This document shows, piece after piece, positions 46,649 to 61,752 of a stretch of 64,000 nucleotides of DNA (position 1 is its first letter; every line of letters begins with the position of its first letter). The stretch covers positions 3,906,001-3,970,000 of the forward strand of contig NZ_LT629690.1 of assembly GCF_900102185.1 (NCBI RefSeq). Direction: 5' to 3'. Under the pieces are notes generated by a model that did not search any database, was not told the origin of the DNA, and worked only from the letters and a program-made list of their open reading frames with translations. Position numbers and translations under genes: made by a program. The DNA is from Terriglobus roseus. Lineage in GTDB: Bacteria > Acidobacteriota > Terriglobia > Terriglobales > Acidobacteriaceae.

Positions 46649-48292
46649 ATGGCACAGATCAAGCGTGGTTGGATGGTTCTCGCAGCCGTTATTGTCGTTG
46701 TACTGGTTGGGGTCTTCGCGATCAGTCATCTGCTGGATGCAGACACCTACCGCAATCGCATCGAAAAGGCGCTCTCCGACGCGTTGGGACGCAACGTGCA
46801 GTTGGGACATCTTGATTTTTCACTCTTCTCCGGCAGCCTGGTCGCGGAGTCTCCTACCATTGCCGACGATGCCGCCTTCAGCACTCAGCCTTTCCTCTCC
46901 GCAAAGGACGTCCGCATCGGTGTCGAGGTCATGCCGTTGCTGCTGCATCGTCAGGTCCATATCCAGGGCTTCACCATTGACGAGCCAAAGATCACACTCA
47001 TCCGTGCGGAAAACGGCACATGGAACTACTCCAGCATCGGCGGCGAAGGGAAGGCCAGGACTTCGCGGGACACCAGCGACCTAATCCCAAACCTGACCGT
47101 CAACAAATTCGACATCGTCAACGGAACCGTCACCGTTGGTACCTTGCCGCAGCAGCGAGAGCCGCGCGTCTACACCGATCTCAGCATTCATGCGCAGGAT
47201 TTCTCCTTTAGCAAGTCTTTCCCCTTCACGCTCAGCGGCAAGCTGCCTGCCGGAGGAAGTCTCGATGTGAGCGGCAACGCCGGCCCACTCAACCAGCATG
47301 ACGCTTCGCTTACACCGCTCACCGCGCAGGTCGCCCTGAAGCATGCTGATCTTGTCTCCGCTGGCTTCGTCGAAGCTAGCCAGGGAATCGCCGGCATTGC
47401 CGACCTTGACAGCAAGATCGTTTCCAACGGTCAGACCGCGCAGGTGGATGGCACCCTTCACATGACGCAACTTAAGCTGGCTGCCAACGGCACACCTTCT
47501 TCTCAACCGGTCGATCTGAAGTTTTCCCTCCTGCAGAACCTTCAATCGCTCTCCGGCACCATTACCAGCGCGAACCTGCAGATCGGCAACGCGGCACTTG
47601 CGCTCACAGGGACTTACCAGACGAGTGGCAACGTCATCTCGACGGAATCCCACGTCGATGGCAGGAACATGCCGATCGACCAGCTTGTCGCGTTTCTTCC
47701 TTCGCTCGGCATCCAGTTGCCCTCAGGCTCGAGACTGCAAGGTGGCACGTTGACCACCGCGCTCAATATCAGCGGACCGATGAAGGCGCTTGTCATCACC
47801 GGCCCCGTGCAGGTGGCCAACACGCAGCTCGCCGGCTTTGACCTTGGCCAGAAGCTTGCCAGCATTCAGTCCTTCACCGGAGCGAAGACCGGCTCAAACA
47901 CCACCATCCAGACACTGAGCACCAACCTGCGCTACGCCGCCGACGGTATCCAGACCAACAATCTCGTCGCCGTTGTATCCGGCCTGGGATCGGCAACCGG
48001 CAGCGGGAGCATCAGTCCCAGCAATGCGCTGAACTATCGTCTGTTGGTCAAGCTCTCGTCCAGCGGCGTCGGAGGAATCGCGACCCAGGCCATGAGCATG
48101 TTACCTGGGGTCTTTGGCTCTGCCGTAAGCCAGACCACCAGCAACGGCATTCCCGTAACCATCAGTGGAACCACAGCGAACCCCACCTTTACCCCTGATA
48201 TGAATAAGCTCATTGGCGGTGCCGTAACGCAACAAAAGAACACGCAAACCAACAACCTGGGCAAAGCCCTCAGCGGCTTCTTCGGCCGATAA
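46649..48292 (+). CDS. AsmA family protein
   Basis: The 547-residue protein starts at ATG 46649 with GGAG five bases upstream. It has one N-terminal membrane helix (WMVLAAVIVVVLVGVFAI, about residues 8-25), then the AsmA head (DADTYRNRIEKALSDALGRNVQLGHLDFSLFSGSLVAESPTI) and a long beta-rich repeat region, ending with AsmA_2-like VSGLGSATGSGSISPSNALNYRL. AsmA-like proteins span the periplasm and are linked to phospholipid transport and outer-membrane homeostasis. A second, more distant AsmA-like protein is encoded at 60013-61752. Confidence 0.88.
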   Translation: MAQIKRGWMVLAAVIVVVLVGVFAISHLLDADTYRNRIEKALSDALGRNVQLGHLDFSLFSGSLVAESPTIADDAAFSTQPFLSAKDVRIGVEVMPLLLHRQVHIQGFTIDEPKITLIRAENGTWNYSSIGGEGKARTSRDTSDLIPNLTVNKFDIVNGTVTVGTLPQQREPRVYTDLSIHAQDFSFSKSFPFTLSGKLPAGGSLDVSGNAGPLNQHDASLTPLTAQVALKHADLVSAGFVEASQGIAGIADLDSKIVSNGQTAQVDGTLHMTQLKLAANGTPSSQPVDLKFSLLQNLQSLSGTITSANLQIGNAALALTGTYQTSGNVISTESHVDGRNMPIDQLVAFLPSLGIQLPSGSRLQGGTLTTALNISGPMKALVITGPVQVANTQLAGFDLGQKLASIQSFTGAKTGSNTTIQTLSTNLRYAADGIQTNNLVAVVSGLGSATGSGSISPSNALNYRLLVKLSSSGVGGIATQAMSMLPGVFGSAVSQTTSNGIPVTISGTTANPTFTPDMNKLIGGAVTQQKNTQTNNLGKALSGFFGR

Positions 48293-51635: not shown

Positions 51636-51804
51636 CCACCTTCTCCGCAAGTTTATGTAGTCCCTCCGCGGCTTTTCGCAGCGCGGACGAGCCCTGCTGC
51701 CGCACCTCTGGCACCACCTCGTCGTTCAGGTAACGGATCAGGCGTTGCAGCTCCGCCTCGGCACGGTCGGTTGCATCCTGTACTTCACGATTCCAGTCGG
51801 CCAT
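51619..51804 (-). CDS. Small helical protein upstream of rlpA
   Basis: This 61-residue protein (MADWNREVQDATDRAEAE...) is one amphipathic, charged helix, possibly two (LQRLIRYLNDEVVPEV and LRKAAEGLHKLAEKV). No named family is recognised. Its 3' end overlaps the start of rlpA by 17 bp and contains the rlpA ribosome site, so translation is coupled. The frame stays open upstream, but ATG 51804 follows purine-rich GGGAATCGGAAG. Confidence 0.6.
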   Translation of the reverse strand: MADWNREVQDATDRAEAELQRLIRYLNDEVVPEVRQQGSSALRKAAEGLHKLAEKVDDRKR

Positions 51805-52013
51805 CTTCCGATTCCCTTCCCGCGCCAATGGGCGCACGCATCCACTTGCAATTAGACCCGTATCCACAGGAAGGTTCTGCGGGGAATTCTCAGGAGTTGC
51901 CGCTTGAGTTAACCCCGCGCATCTGTGCAACTCAAGCGAAACAACAGGCTTCCAATCTGCGATGGACCGGAGCACTCTGTAATGAGTCCCCCGGAAAAAA
52001 GGAAACCGCCACG

Positions 52014-52799
52014 TTGAAGCGATATCTCATTGCGTCTGCCGCCTCTCTTTTGCTCTCGCCGCTGCTGTTCGCTCAGAAAGCGAATCTGCAGCCCGTGGCA
52101 GAGTCGCGCCTGGAGCAGACCGTACTGCTGCCGGATGCACCCTCAACTGTGCGCGATTCGCTAGAGGATCAGGCCGATCAGAAGAATGCAAACTCTCCCA
52201 TCCGTGCGAATGTTGGGAACTACGGACGCCCCGTAGCGAAGAAATACGCGAGCCTGATCTATCCCGGTCAGCAGGCGCTGCCCCTGAGCGCCACGGACAA
52301 AATGGTCTATGCGGTTCCTGACGCATTTGGCCTGATGAACCTAACCAGCATCATGGCTTCGGCAGGATGGTCGCATCTGGTGAATTCTTCGCCACACTAC
52401 GGCACCAACGGCGAAGCCTTTGGCAAACGTGTGGGAGCGGCCGCATTGCGCAACGTGACGCAAAGCCTGAGCACTGATGCTGTTTTTGCGCCGATTTTCC
52501 ACGACGATCCGCGCTACTACCAGATGGGGCAGGGCAACGGATTCTTTAAGCGCGGCTTCTACGCTGCTTCCCGCGTGGTGGTGACGCGATCCGATAGCGG
52601 ACACCAAACTCTGAATGCCCCTCTGTTGCTTGGCTACGGCACCGCAGCCGGCATCAGCAATTTCATCTACCCCGATCAGGACACGGGAGCCGGGGCGACG
52701 CTGGCCAACTACGGAACATCGCTGGGTGGCGCAGCCATTGGCATGCTGGCGAATGAGTTTCTGGATGACGCTCTGCGCATCGTTCACTTGCGGAAATAG
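52014..52799 (+). CDS. Exported protein of unknown function, acidobacterial type
   Basis: TTG 52014 gives 261 residues with a signal peptide (LKRYLIASAASLLLSPLLFA, cleavage after FAQ). The mature part has no cysteine, a short N-terminal linker with VLLPDAPSTV, and several hydrophobic, glycine-rich stretches (FGLMNLTSIMASAGWSHLV, LLLGYGTAAGISNFIY, YGTSLGGAAIGMLANEFLDD) that recall outer-membrane or membrane-associated proteins. Similar proteins, as I remember them, are frequent in acidobacterial genomes without assigned function. The frame is open 81 codons upstream, but that part overlaps the divergent small gene and lacks a signal. Confidence 0.65.
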   Translation: MKRYLIASAASLLLSPLLFAQKANLQPVAESRLEQTVLLPDAPSTVRDSLEDQADQKNANSPIRANVGNYGRPVAKKYASLIYPGQQALPLSATDKMVYAVPDAFGLMNLTSIMASAGWSHLVNSSPHYGTNGEAFGKRVGAAALRNVTQSLSTDAVFAPIFHDDPRYYQMGQGNGFFKRGFYAASRVVVTRSDSGHQTLNAPLLLGYGTAAGISNFIYPDQDTGAGATLANYGTSLGGAAIGMLANEFLDDALRIVHLRK

Positions 52800-52835
52800 T
52801 GTGTTTCCCGTGAAACGCCATTTCGCGTCATGAAA

Positions 52836-52865
52836 GAAAGCCGACTAAATAAGTCGGCTTTTTAT
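52836..52865 (+). terminator. Rho-independent terminator
   Basis: A perfect 10-bp stem AAAGCCGACT with loop AAATA is followed by TTTTTAT. The rest of the 321-bp gap 52800-53120 presumably holds the promoter of the radical SAM gene; I see no convincing boxes or ORF in it. Confidence 0.9.
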
Positions 52866-53120: not shown

Positions 53121-55250
53121 ATGGCCAAGGCATCGAAGCTCGCAGAAAAAGCCCTTACGCTCGCAGCGCAAGGCGCATGGGTAGTGTTTGACAAGCTGAA
53201 CAACATCAGCCCGAACCCGTCGTTCACGCCGAAGTGGAGCGACAAGCCTCTGCTCAAGAGCTACCAGAAGGAAAAGCCGCCCCTTGGCTGGCCCCGTACC
53301 ACCGATTCGCTCTGCCCCCGCTGCGTGCCGGAAATCCGTCAGCAGATCGTTGATGGCAAGCTGCCCCACGAAATCCTGCTGAACGAGAAGGTCGGCGAAA
53401 TCAAGGCTCAGATCATTGAGCGCGATGGCCAGATCCTGATGGTGAAGGATTGTCCGATTCACGGCCACTTCGAGGACGTTATGTCCATCGATCCGCCGAT
53501 GATGAAGCACCTGGAAGACGTCTTCCCGGGCCGCGACATCCGCGCGCACAACGATGAGAAGCTGCACAACCACGGCACCAGCACCGTGACCCACGGTCGT
53601 GGTTCGGTTCTGACCATCGATCTGACCAACCGTTGCAACATGATGTGCGATCCCTGCTTCATGGACGCAAACCAAGTGGGCTTCGTTCACGAACTGACGT
53701 GGGACGAGATCAAGACCATGCTGGACAACGCGATCCAGATCAAGCCGAAGCGCCAGATGTCGGTACAGTTCTCAGGCGGCGAGCCGACCCTGAGCCCGTA
53801 CTTCCTGGACGCTGTAGCTTATGCCCGTAAGGTTGGTTACAACTCGGTTCAGGCTGCTACCAACGGTATTGAGTTTGCGAAGTCGAAGGAATTTGCGAAG
53901 GCCGCGGCAGAAGCCGGTCTGCGCTACGCATACCTCCAGTTCGACGGCATCGGCAACGCTGCCAACAGCCACCGTAAGGTTGGCAACAGCTTTGACGTTA
54001 AGCTGCAGGCGATCCACAACCTGCATGAGGCCGGTGTGGACATCGTTCCCGTCACCTGCATCATCAACGGCATCAACAACGAGCAGGTTGGCCGTATCAT
54101 CCAGTTCGCTCTGGACAACCCGAAGAAGATCAACTTCCTCTCGTTCCAGCCGGTTTCGTTCACGGGCCGCGACGAAGCAGTTTCCGACGAGCGCCGCCAC
54201 GCACAGCGTTACACGCTGAGCCACCTGGCACACGACATCCGCAACCAGACGGGCCTCGGCGAGTCCACCCGCGACTGGTTCCCCATCTCGTTCATGTCCA
54301 CCTTCTCTGACTGGGCCGATCTGGTTCACGGGCCGGAGCATGAGTGGGGCCAGCTCTCCTGCGGTTGCCACCCGAACTGCGGTATCGGCATGGCGCTGAT
54401 GATCGATAAGGAAACGAAGGAAGCCGTTCCGGTGACCGCGTTCCTGAATGCAGTTCAGCTGGCGAAGGACGTTGCTCGTGTAAACGATGCAGCTCGTGGC
54501 AAGTTCCTCTCCATCGTGGGTGTGTCGCTTGCCCTGCTGCGCAACTACGACCCGACGAAGTCGCCCACGCACTTCCGCATCATGGATCTGCTGCAGAAGT
54601 TCGATAAGTGCTTCGGCGCTACCGGCCGCAACTACGGCAAGGTGACCGGCGACCGTACCATGGCCGACATTGAGAAGCGCCGCGCTGACCGCTGGAACTT
54701 CCTCTTCATCGCCGGCATGTGGTTCCAGGATCTGTTCAACTACGACTTCCGCCGCACCGAGCAGTGCATCATCCCGTACGCAACGCAGGAAGGCGAAATC
54801 AGCTTCTGCGCATACAACACGGGTATCGGCTGGCGCAACATCATCGAGAAGATGCACATGACGTCGACCCTCACCAAGTGGTACGAGGAGCACGGCCGTC
54901 ACGAAATCTTCGCCGGTGGTAAGAAGGTTGCGATCGAGAAGCAGGAGAAGTATGACCTGGTTCTGAACGAGGCTCACGTGAACTCCGCTGCGAACGATAC
55001 CTTCGATAAGAGCGGTATCGCTAAGAACGCTCGCGAAGAGAAGATTCGTGCACGTGATGCGAAGCTGAAGCAGGATGCAGAGAACGCCCGTATGGCGAAG
55101 CTCTACCGCAAGGAAATCCTGAAGGAACAGGAACAGCCTGGCTTCGTCGCTCTCGGCGAAATCGGTGGTCTGGGTGGCATCAAGCCCGCAGCTCCGGCAG
55201 CAGAAGTTGTTGCTGAGATCAAGAACGACGAGCTTGTCGCAGGCGACTAA
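53121..55250 (+). CDS. Radical SAM protein of the tetraether / membrane-spanning-lipid synthase (Tes, MJ0619) type
   Basis: The 709-residue protein starts at ATG 53121 after AGGAG. Residues 60-135 hold a CPxC module (SLCPRC, C65 and C68; DCPIHG, C111 and H114) like the N-terminal metal site of MJ0619/Tes proteins. The radical SAM cluster motif CNMMCDPC (C172, C176, C179) and SGGEPT (218-223) follow. Further cysteines at 414, 416 and 420 (SCGCHPNC), 549 and 563 could bind auxiliary iron-sulfur clusters, as in Tes. A charged helical tail (about 580-709) ends the chain. Tes joins lipid chain ends by carbon-carbon bonds; acidobacteria make iso-diabolic-acid membrane-spanning lipids, so a similar reaction is a reasonable inference, not proof. 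The gene is monocistronic between two terminators. Confidence 0.75.
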   Translation: MAKASKLAEKALTLAAQGAWVVFDKLNNISPNPSFTPKWSDKPLLKSYQKEKPPLGWPRTTDSLCPRCVPEIRQQIVDGKLPHEILLNEKVGEIKAQIIERDGQILMVKDCPIHGHFEDVMSIDPPMMKHLEDVFPGRDIRAHNDEKLHNHGTSTVTHGRGSVLTIDLTNRCNMMCDPCFMDANQVGFVHELTWDEIKTMLDNAIQIKPKRQMSVQFSGGEPTLSPYFLDAVAYARKVGYNSVQAATNGIEFAKSKEFAKAAAEAGLRYAYLQFDGIGNAANSHRKVGNSFDVKLQAIHNLHEAGVDIVPVTCIINGINNEQVGRIIQFALDNPKKINFLSFQPVSFTGRDEAVSDERRHAQRYTLSHLAHDIRNQTGLGESTRDWFPISFMSTFSDWADLVHGPEHEWGQLSCGCHPNCGIGMALMIDKETKEAVPVTAFLNAVQLAKDVARVNDAARGKFLSIVGVSLALLRNYDPTKSPTHFRIMDLLQKFDKCFGATGRNYGKVTGDRTMADIEKRRADRWNFLFIAGMWFQDLFNYDFRRTEQCIIPYATQEGEISFCAYNTGIGWRNIIEKMHMTSTLTKWYEEHGRHEIFAGGKKVAIEKQEKYDLVLNEAHVNSAANDTFDKSGIAKNAREEKIRARDAKLKQDAENARMAKLYRKEILKEQEQPGFVALGEIGGLGGIKPAAPAAEVVAEIKNDELVAGD

Positions 55251-55273
55251 TCTCCTAACCAGAACTAACTAAG

Positions 55274-55302
55274 AAGGCCGCCCGAAAGGGCGGCCTTTCT
55301 GT
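55274..55302 (+). terminator. Rho-independent terminator of radical SAM gene
   Basis: A perfect 10-bp stem AAGGCCGCCC with loop GAAA is followed by TTTCTGTT, 23 bp after the stop. Confidence 0.92.
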
Positions 55303-60012: not shown

Positions 60013-61752
60013 ATGGAGAACGAAGAAACTCTGCACGACGACCATCACCCACTGTGGACACCCACCATCCGCCGCCGCCTCACTTTCGTTCTGATTGGGG
60101 CTCTGGTGGTGGTGCTGTTGGTCGTTCTGCCGCCGTACATCAGCATTAGCCGGTATCAGCGGCGCGTGGCCTCGGCCATGTCTGAGGCGCTGGGACGGCC
60201 CGTTCGCATCGACAACATTCAGCTTCATCTGTTGCCGTTACCGGGACTGACACTTTCAAACTTTGTGGTCAGCGAGACACCGGAGTTTGGCTCCGAGCCG
60301 ATCCTTCGCGCGAACACCGTGGAAGCGCGGCTGCGTCTAGCATCGCTGTGGCGCCGACGCATTGAAGTGTCGCGCATCTCGCTGGATTCGCCTTCGATCA
60401 ATCTGGTGCGTAATCCGGAGACCGGCCGATGGAACCTGCAGCGCATCGTCACGCAGGCTTCGCAGATCACGTCTGCTCCGACTACGCAGGCAAAGGCCAG
60501 CGAAGCTCCACGCTTTCCTTATATTGAAGCGACCGATGCCCGCTTGAACATTAAAAACGGCGATGTAAAGCTGCCATTTTCGCTAAAGGAAACAGAGTTT
60601 GCGCTGTGGCTGCCGGAGCCGGATCAATGGCAACTTCGTCTTTCGGGACGTCCTTCGCGCACCGACACCGACGCATCGGACGTAGGTCTGGTAAAGGTGG
60701 AAGCCACCCTGGGCCGCGGTGCGGACCTCTCCTCGGCCAACATTGATCTCAGCGCCGCATGGAAGCCCACTCCCATGGGCGAGGCCACGAAACTGTTTGC
60801 CGGCGGCGATCAGGGATGGCGGGGCGAAGCCTCTGCTTCGGCCACGTTGAAGGGCACGCTGAACACGGCACGCCTGAATGCGGATTTGCATCTGCTCTCG
60901 CTGCATCGCGCGGACTTCGCACCGGAACAGACCGCACAGATCAACGCACACTGCGAAGCCGCCACCACGGGCCTGCTGCGCAGCCTGCACGACCTCCGTT
61001 GCGCTGTGCCCACCAAGGAAGACACGTCGTTCCTTGCAGCGATTGATTTCCTTCGCAGCGAGCCCGCACCGCTCAGCGCGCATGACAAGCCGGATGCCGC
61101 AGCCAAACCCGGCGTCTTCCTGTTGCGCGGCGAGATTCCGGACACCTTCTCGTTCAGCACAGCCTCCATGCAAGCGTCGCTGAAGGATGCTTCTCCCAAC
61201 TACGCTTTGGCCTGGATACGCCTATTCTCACGTCGCATTCCGAGCAATCTCAGCATTGCCGGATCACTCGATCTGACGGCGTGGAAGGAAGATACCGGTC
61301 CGGAAAGCAGCCGTTGGGGAACAACCGTGGTCTGCGCCTGCACCGTGCCCGCTCAAAAAGAAGACGCTGCCACCACTAACCACACATGGAATGTGGTACT
61401 TACAAACGTGGGAACGGGAAATAACAGCACACTGCCGGATACGGTGCTGACACTAACCGCGTATCAAACAGAACATGCCGCACAGGCCACACCGGAAGCC
61501 GCTGTGCCGCATGTGGCTGAAGGACATAGCGTTACCGGCACGCTGGACCGCAATCGCTACAAGCTGACATTTGCATCGGCAGATGTGGCGCATCTGGCAG
61601 CCCGTTACTTCCCGCCACTAGGCGATGCCATGCCTACGGACACTCCCGAGGGTAGCCAGCTTTTGACGGAGCGTAACTGGACGGGAACGCCTGTCTGGAC
61701 AGCGACCGCCCCTGTGCCTGCAGCCAAATCGAAGCCTCGGCATCGCCGTTAG
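60013..61752 (+). CDS. AsmA-like protein
   Basis: The 579-residue protein has a cytoplasmic N-terminus, one membrane helix (LTFVLIGALVVVLLVVLPPY, about residues 22-40) and the AsmA-type head (YQRRVASAMSEALGRPVRIDNIQLHLLPLPGLTLSNFVVSE, then ILRANTVEARLRL). The rest is beta-rich with a proline- and alanine-rich C-terminal end. It is likely periplasm-spanning and concerned with envelope lipids. Coupled to lepB. Confidence 0.85.
   Translation: MENEETLHDDHHPLWTPTIRRRLTFVLIGALVVVLLVVLPPYISISRYQRRVASAMSEALGRPVRIDNIQLHLLPLPGLTLSNFVVSETPEFGSEPILRANTVEARLRLASLWRRRIEVSRISLDSPSINLVRNPETGRWNLQRIVTQASQITSAPTTQAKASEAPRFPYIEATDARLNIKNGDVKLPFSLKETEFALWLPEPDQWQLRLSGRPSRTDTDASDVGLVKVEATLGRGADLSSANIDLSAAWKPTPMGEATKLFAGGDQGWRGEASASATLKGTLNTARLNADLHLLSLHRADFAPEQTAQINAHCEAATTGLLRSLHDLRCAVPTKEDTSFLAAIDFLRSEPAPLSAHDKPDAAAKPGVFLLRGEIPDTFSFSTASMQASLKDASPNYALAWIRLFSRRIPSNLSIAGSLDLTAWKEDTGPESSRWGTTVVCACTVPAQKEDAATTNHTWNVVLTNVGTGNNSTLPDTVLTLTAYQTEHAAQATPEAAVPHVAEGHSVTGTLDRNRYKLTFASADVAHLAARYFPPLGDAMPTDTPEGSQLLTERNWTGTPVWTATAPVPAAKSKPRHRR

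Follow-up and report, generated by a model that had tools for sequence, protein, structure and literature searches.

A Tes-like radical-SAM protein lacking the ligands of one iron-sulfur cluster is a candidate maker of iso-diabolic acid in Terriglobus roseus and other Acidobacteriota

Iso-diabolic acid, a membrane-spanning lipid of soil bacteria, forms together with brGDGTs the basis of temperature and pH proxies in wide use. An Mss-type coupling enzyme was reportedly presented by Sahonero-Canavesi in 2022. Which enzyme makes the lipid in Acidobacteriota is the question raised by one gene of Terriglobus roseus, located in a window (the whole stretch of DNA analysed) of 64,000 nucleotides; an earlier note had read its product as a Tes/MJ0619-like radical-SAM protein that might join iso-fatty acyl tails.

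Bacterial Tes homologs have been proposed as makers of brGDGTs by Zeng 2022 (PMC8941075), who named a single homolog of Edaphobacter aggregans with 32% identity to archaeal Tes, and the two homologs of Solibacter were proposed likewise by Halamka et al. 2022 (PMC10087280); these and the other papers are cited here from excerpts of their text. The activity of bacterial Tes homologs is described as unconfirmed (PMC11868695), and Mss as the confirmed bacterial coupling enzyme (PMC13274423; PMC11604127). The E. aggregans ortholog of the window protein (L007, 92% identity), taken here as the one homolog of Zeng 2022, differs from it in nothing essential, and the missing cluster described below is not discussed in the available text of PMC8941075. 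The main lipid idea is not new, as it is already in print for this ortholog. As far as the accessible literature shows, what is new here is the loss of the N-terminal cluster, the partner gene and the agreement with lipid data of named strains.

The 709-residue open reading frame claimed for this locus is real, and its coordinates are given with those of the other features in Table 1. A promoter space and a terminator of its own had also been attributed to the gene. A 321-base gap does lie on its 5' side and a terminator-like hairpin follows it, for which none of 200 shuffles was equally good in the folding-energy test and which was not among the listings of a simple terminator scan; no sigma-70-like promoter, however, was found in the gap by a simple scan, the two sites of which (0.8 expected) fall within the gene. 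Because strong hairpins occur on both sides and the gap separates it from the upstream gene, the gene probably stands alone as a transcription unit.

Table 1. Positions of the Tes-like gene, its predicted metal sites, the adjoining hairpins and the candidate partner gene (window coordinates unless a contig is named)
Feature	Position	Strand	Remarks
Tes-like radical-SAM gene, clade A	53121..55250	+	ORF, ATG start, 709 aa plus stop
Rubredoxin-type iron site C65, C68, C111, H114	53313..53462	+	aligns with MJ0619 C9, C12, C33, H36
Residues 140-165, place of the N-terminal [Fe4S4] ligands in MJ0619 and true Tes; all absent	53538..53615	+	
Radical-SAM motif CNMMCDPC, C172, C176, C179	53634..53657	+	aligns with MJ0619 C98, C102, C105
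C-terminal [Fe4S4] ligands C420, C549, C563, M533 (predicted); also C414, C416	54360..54809	+	
Charged C-terminal extension past the Tes core, residues 590-709	54888..55247	+	predicted helix 633-665
Intrinsic-terminator-like hairpin of the Tes-like gene	55273..55298	+	-24.8 kcal/mol, z -6.4
Hairpin 3' of the upstream gene, between it and the Tes-like gene	52835..52863	+	-16.6 kcal/mol, z -5.6
L139, radical-SAM protein, 357 aa	G000:C1:3238156-3239226	-	outside the window

An operon reading is not supported for the window, where few neighbours recur beside relatives. Among 87 related loci searched at 1e-8 (L005-L084 and L128-L134), the RlpA-like upstream gene recurs in at least 22, the gene at 51771-52796, whose function was not recognised, in at least 20, and the RidA-like gene in at least two; the class-V aminotransferase neighbour recurs in none. 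All these counts are lower bounds, as several loci are short-flanked and the gene caller listed the Tes-like gene itself in 71 of the 87. No lipid role was found among the neighbouring genes scanned. Two AsmA/DUF748-family proteins flank the gene, one on each side (46649-48289 and 60013-61749). A plasmid search gave three weak records, each of which fell short of 80% query coverage.

At an E-value of 0.001, Pfam gave two domains for the window protein, Zn_ribbon_HMPTM (residues 58-122) and Radical_SAM (168-330), and no SPASM match. The best NCBIfam model was the tetraether lipid synthase Tes (NF045702, GDGT-MAS; E 1.7e-93), whose match stops at residue 580 and whose curated cut-off of 450 bits lies above the 313.9 bits obtained; the E. 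aggregans ortholog scored 315.0 bits, and three proteins of the acidobacterial true Tes type (clade D below) scored 572-594 bits. The charged C-terminal tail pointed out in the earlier note is present, with 19 K/R and 20 D/E among the 114 residues 596-709. MJ0619 of Methanocaldococcus jannaschii (GDGT-MAS / Tes; PDB 7TOL, 7TOM) was the top PDB sequence match (1.1e-57), with 30.4% identity over 487 aligned positions. An AlphaFold2 model built on 69 sequences had a mean pLDDT of 69.4 and a pTM of 0.76 and was weak at the metal loops (pLDDT below 50 at residues 168-187 and 541-573). With this model, the two MJ0619 structures ranked first in Foldseek (3.7e-21 and 5.8e-20), the next match being MoaA at 2.8e-5; the fold match to 7tom, limited by the weak model, had a TM-score of 0.47 on the query and 0.65 on the target with an rmsd of 9.7. 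In Tes, this fold comprises two hydrophobic lipid pockets. The kinship with MJ0619 that had been suggested is borne out by sequence and fold, but full Tes membership was rejected on the score below the cut-off and the missing N-terminal cluster; as judged from sequence, the protein is Tes-like and not Tes by the family's own criteria. It is the sole Tes-like protein of its complete genome, save short matches of at most 53.6 bits.

The scores also bear on a place in a non-lipid radical-SAM branch, as a TrsS-like protein, a heme or peptide maturase or a pterin methylase. The TrsS radical-SAM (seleno)protein model matched at 4.9e-61 and the N-terminal Pfam model is named HMPTM, both of which would suit such a place; we regard it, however, as highly improbable, with a TrsS score of 206.6 bits against a cut-off of 490, no SPASM match, and heme and peptide models at 82.6 bits or less among the NCBIfam matches listed (25 of 42 families). 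The name HMPTM is taken by us as a relic of the old pterin-methylase annotation of MJ0619. That annotation is rejected in PMC9433317.

According to Lloyd et al. 2022 (PMC9433317), MJ0619 has four metal sites. C9, C12, C33 and H36 form a rubredoxin-type site, and C73, C77, C80 and one His hold an N-terminal [Fe4S4] cluster; the third site is the radical-SAM cluster, and the fourth a C-terminal [Fe4S4] cluster whose Met439 is labile. A substrate carbon is reported as bonded to a sulfur of one of its clusters (PMC9433317), which was taken here as the C-terminal one. In a 34-sequence alignment including MJ0619, whose numbering reproduced the residues given in that paper, 11 of the 15 metal ligands of MJ0619 are kept, some of the ligand assignments being inferred. 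M533 aligns with M439, and C420, C549 and C563, placed via neighbouring columns opposite C338, C455 and C470, would be the cysteine ligands of the C-terminal cluster. Residues Q343, S346 and R350 correspond to Q268, S271 and R275 of the SAM loop, whose roles in MJ0619 come from PMC9433317. The full Tes set of metal sites implied by the earlier note was not found, as the N-terminal CxxxCxxC...H is absent: C73, C77, C80 and H83 (presumably the His ligand) align with a gap, H151, S154 and T157. In common with MJ0619, the window protein has the ligands of the rubredoxin-type and radical-SAM sites and of the C-terminal cluster, labile Met included, as well as the SAM-loop residues; it differs from MJ0619 in lacking the N-terminal [Fe4S4] ligands, in about 55 more N-terminal residues and the charged tail, and in its bacterial host, with lipids presumably fatty-acyl rather than isoprenoid.

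Conservation was assessed in 119 window-type rows (the window protein, 80 related loci, 31 genome-search loci and 7 fetched stretches), 112 of them distinct, and all 11 kept ligands are invariant in the 119. The cysteine motifs singled out earlier are thereby upheld: the cysteines of CNMMCDPC (C172-N-M-M-C176-D-P-C179), the cysteines and H114 of the N-terminal module CPxC...CPIHG (C65-x2-C68 and C111-P-I-H114) and the five downstream cysteines C414, C416, C420, C549 and C563 are kept in 119/119 rows. In total, 11 cysteines and H114 are invariant, and C313 and C497 are not; a Cys anywhere in residues 130-170 occurs in one row of 119. Loss of the auxiliary cysteines in close homologues had been named as a refuting finding: no row has lost the C-terminal ones, but those of the N-terminal cluster are absent throughout the clade.

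Five groups of Acidobacteriota proteins (A-E) were set by metal sites, model scores and alignment. Clade A, the window type, is without the N-terminal cluster; clade B (L115, L116) has the same metal sites at about 50% identity, and clade C (L117, aligned; L165, by sequence reading) has lost both auxiliary clusters. The clade C paralogues L117, L165 (Acidicapsa dinghuensis) and L166 (E. aggregans, only a 389-residue frame) keep the rubredoxin-type and radical-SAM ligands. Clade D (L118-L125 and others), the acidobacterial true Tes type, is of the same family, with about 35% identity and the three kept sites in common; all four sites are present in the rows inspected and all N-terminal ligands in nine clade D alignment rows. 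We infer that it corresponds to the Koribacter/Solibacter type of Zeng 2022. Group E (L126, L127) is TrsS-like, below the TrsS cut-off, and keeps the N-terminal cluster but not the C-terminal one, which is the opposite of the window protein.

A maximum-likelihood tree of 34 Tes-like proteins was built from the Tes-like groups, two TrsS-like rows and MJ0619, with no methyltransferase, peptide maturase or other radical-SAM family. Clades A, B and C were joined with support of 100/100, and clade A alone with 94/94; together they fall with bacterial Tes, clade D being unresolved around them. The TrsS-like rows of group E lie outside A-D and group with MJ0619 on the other side (94/98), which again argues against the non-lipid branch. 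Fine placement is unsure, since long branches lead to L117, MJ0619 and two D rows. On the simplest reading, the N-terminal cluster would have been lost once, before the split of A, B and C. A phylogeny pointing to a non-lipid clade had been named as the check on the lipid reading: within this tree, A-C stand with bacterial Tes, but methyltransferases and peptide maturases are disfavoured by family, PDB and fold scores. The TrsS, SPASM and peptide-maturase readings are disfavoured by model scores and by the metal-site pattern.

The loss of one cluster, and the existence of clade C relatives (L117, L165) without the C-terminal cluster cysteines too, might also mark a paralogue that has degenerated, with altered catalysis, and is retained as a regulator or structural component. 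This appears most unlikely in view of the 11 remaining ligands, invariant in every window-type row, and of the genus, in which all 19 genomes searched, that of the window included, keep clade A at 90% identity or more.

To assess the distribution of the family, 395 Acidobacteriota genomes, evenly drawn and at least 90% complete, were surveyed, and 200 gave a match at 1e-40 or better. With clade labels assigned by E-value, clade A (1e-278 or better) was present in 154 genomes, intermediate B-like matches (1e-193 to 1e-241) in 26, and weaker matches only in 20, of which 18 have a D match; the B-like genomes were classed by score, and the aligned B rows L115 and L116 come from other genomes. The Tes type (D) was counted in 32 genomes as a score class, six of them just 42-47% identical to the query, its metal ligands being seen in aligned rows only. 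Clade A and the Tes type occurred together in 7 of the 32 Tes-type genomes against 12.5 expected (Fisher p 0.04, kinship ignored). Strict mutual exclusion holds in family f2 (ten genomes: four with A only, five with the Tes type only, none with both, one with neither) and fails in the phylum, and it was rejected. The two types are not simply interchangeable, because they coexist in those seven genomes. In G290, G164, G123 and G437 the two genes lie 0.5-11 kb apart, which stays a hint of a joint gene cluster, as the families common to these loci gave no evident lipid operon and most genes there are unannotated. Two contigs titled Rhodanobacteraceae (L035, L037) carry clade A genes 85-86% identical to that of the window and are probably misbinned acidobacterial contigs.

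Lipid data for named strains were compared with their genomes. The shares of iso-diabolic acid measured by Huber et al. 2024 (PMC11354219) are 30.4% for E. modestus DSM 18101, 26.4% for E. aggregans DSM 19364 and 11.8% for E. lichenicola; iso-diabolic ethers were not detected under the conditions of that study, E. aggregans included. Clade A is present in all ten named genomes searched (L006, L007, L009, L012, L013, L018, L019, L020, L030, L044), and the Tes cut-off is exceeded in none of them. In E. modestus (L009) the Tes model matches once at 1e-30 or better, the match being of clade A; the genome of E. aggregans has clade A and a second, shorter match of 202 bits, clade C-like by sequence reading.

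Its homology, ligand conservation, fold match and distribution are observed, and from these the substrate, product and mechanism of the window protein are proposed. It is likely a three-site enzyme of the Tes kind that links two iso-C15 acyl chains of membrane phospholipids through their terminal carbons, giving iso-diabolic acid lipids. The coupling of iso-fatty acyl tails suggested in the earlier note remains the best-supported function through Tes kinship, the kept C-terminal cluster and the lipid fit. What counts against it are the Solibacter lipid data given below, the weakness of the structure model at the metal loops, the coexistence of clade A with the Tes type and the neighbouring genes, none of which showed a lipid role among those scanned; the lipid-coupling idea is probably right, and clade A is a strong candidate for the maker of iso-diabolic acid. 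In the predicted mechanism, SAM on the C172/C176/C179 cluster would give a 5'-deoxyadenosyl radical, which would abstract H from one chain end; a sulfur atom of the C-terminal cluster (ligands C420/C549/C563) would then bind the chain-end carbon as M533 departs, and a second H abstraction on the other chain would allow the two carbons to couple. The rubredoxin-type site is kept, and the N-terminal cluster would be dispensable or have its job taken over by something else.

Iso-diabolic acid could instead come from an Mss-type enzyme encoded elsewhere, with the window protein modifying lipids or hydrocarbons in another way, for instance by C-H functionalisation or by forming a different C-C link; jointly, these two propositions seem rather unlikely. 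Mss (Thermotoga, Bacillota) carries out the same tail-to-tail fatty acyl coupling as proposed here; its coupling of acyl tails has been confirmed, models of it reportedly share the catalytic architecture of Tes (PMC13274423), and it was reported in 11 of 97 MAGs of Acidobacteria from the Black Sea (PMC11868695). In Solibacter usitatus, moreover, which encodes two Tes homologs, iso-diabolic acid is not detectable (PMC10087280). Radical_SAM matches 19 loci of the complete window genome; of the 18 besides the window gene, 13 pass the curated NCBIfam cut-off for another family (MoaA, MiaB, HpnJ, RimO, MqnC, HemW, HpnH, GrrM/OscB, LipA, quinohemoprotein maturase, MqnE, RlmN and UDG-linked protein), and five (L139, L144, L147, L151, L152) fall below every cut-off, leaving room for such an enzyme. 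Against this explanation, the window protein keeps every ligand of the presumed substrate-carbon cluster, the one Tes-like gene found in E. modestus (30% iso-diabolic acid) is of clade A, and the 154 genomes with clade A out of 395 fit a phylum where the lipid is common. Gms, the GMGT synthase, likewise couples lipid chains by radical-SAM sp3-sp3 chemistry (PMC11186832); its SPASM domain carries two auxiliary clusters, whereas the window protein has no SPASM match. In a control, the Thermotoga maritima genome gave no Tes-model match at 1e-30.

A DUF2229 protein was found in one of the ten named genomes, that of E. aggregans (1222 aa, BadF plus DUF2229, which we take to be the domains of PlsA). 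The DUF2229 model also matches T. maritima, the source of the proposed ether enzyme, as well as Lactococcus, Thermus and Deinobacterium in a control, so the domain is not specific. The window genome gave no DUF2229 match. Because a DUF2229 protein of PlsA/Ger type is lacking there, its product is predicted to be ester-bound iso-diabolic acid, not the ether-bound form (brGDGT). Some brGDGT is reported for two strains out of 17 cultures (PMC13274423), one of them E. aggregans Wbg-1, which is the strain of DSM 19364 (tables of PMC11354219); that DUF2229 tracks brGDGT among the named genomes, with one positive in ten, is at most suggestive. Four Tes-type genomes were checked, and DUF2229 was present in G037, G220 and G335 and not in G437. 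In G220, which belongs to another acidobacterial family, a BadF plus DUF2229 protein of PlsA/Ger type (L162:5184-8279, minus strand) is encoded right beside the Tes-type gene and in the same direction; the two may form an ether-lipid operon. In G058, a 519-aa SPASM radical-SAM protein (L124:7815-9371, plus strand) lies directly downstream of the Tes-type gene and is a possible lipid-modifying partner.

Among the five radical-SAM loci of the window genome below every cut-off, L139 is a candidate partner enzyme of clade A, to judge from co-occurrence and gene order. Its family was found in 130 of 395 genomes at 1e-70; 123 have both families, 31 clade A alone, seven the L139 family alone and 234 neither. 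Upstream of clade A and in the same orientation, with 108-470 bases between match ends, it is found in at least ten genomes of the 395 (G068, G174, G235, G291, G297, G335, G341, G347, G353, G410), which span five family labels (f19, f67, f73, f83, f87), and for five of these ten pairs the fetched stretch held no listed gene between; at L080, an L139-family gene is directly downstream of clade A. A tight link is opposed by the 31 of 154 clade A genomes without the L139 family and by the distance of about 720 kb between the two genes in the window genome. All ten named genomes carry the family, by coordinates not beside clade A. The pair was not found in the literature excerpts, in searches not aimed at a partner. 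A two-enzyme system in much of Acidobacteriota, with a Tes variant that has shed one cluster, an L139-type protein and a DUF2229 reductase setting ester or ether, is conceivable, if doubtful; the L139-type protein would then replace the lost function or perform a paired step, for instance chain activation or a further modification.

A single-gene prediction in cultivable strains, together with the DUF2229 gene, which may decide between ester and ether, and the partner gene, makes the proposal directly testable. If it is true, clade A would be a natural enzyme without the N-terminal cluster, and this cluster would not be needed for coupling.
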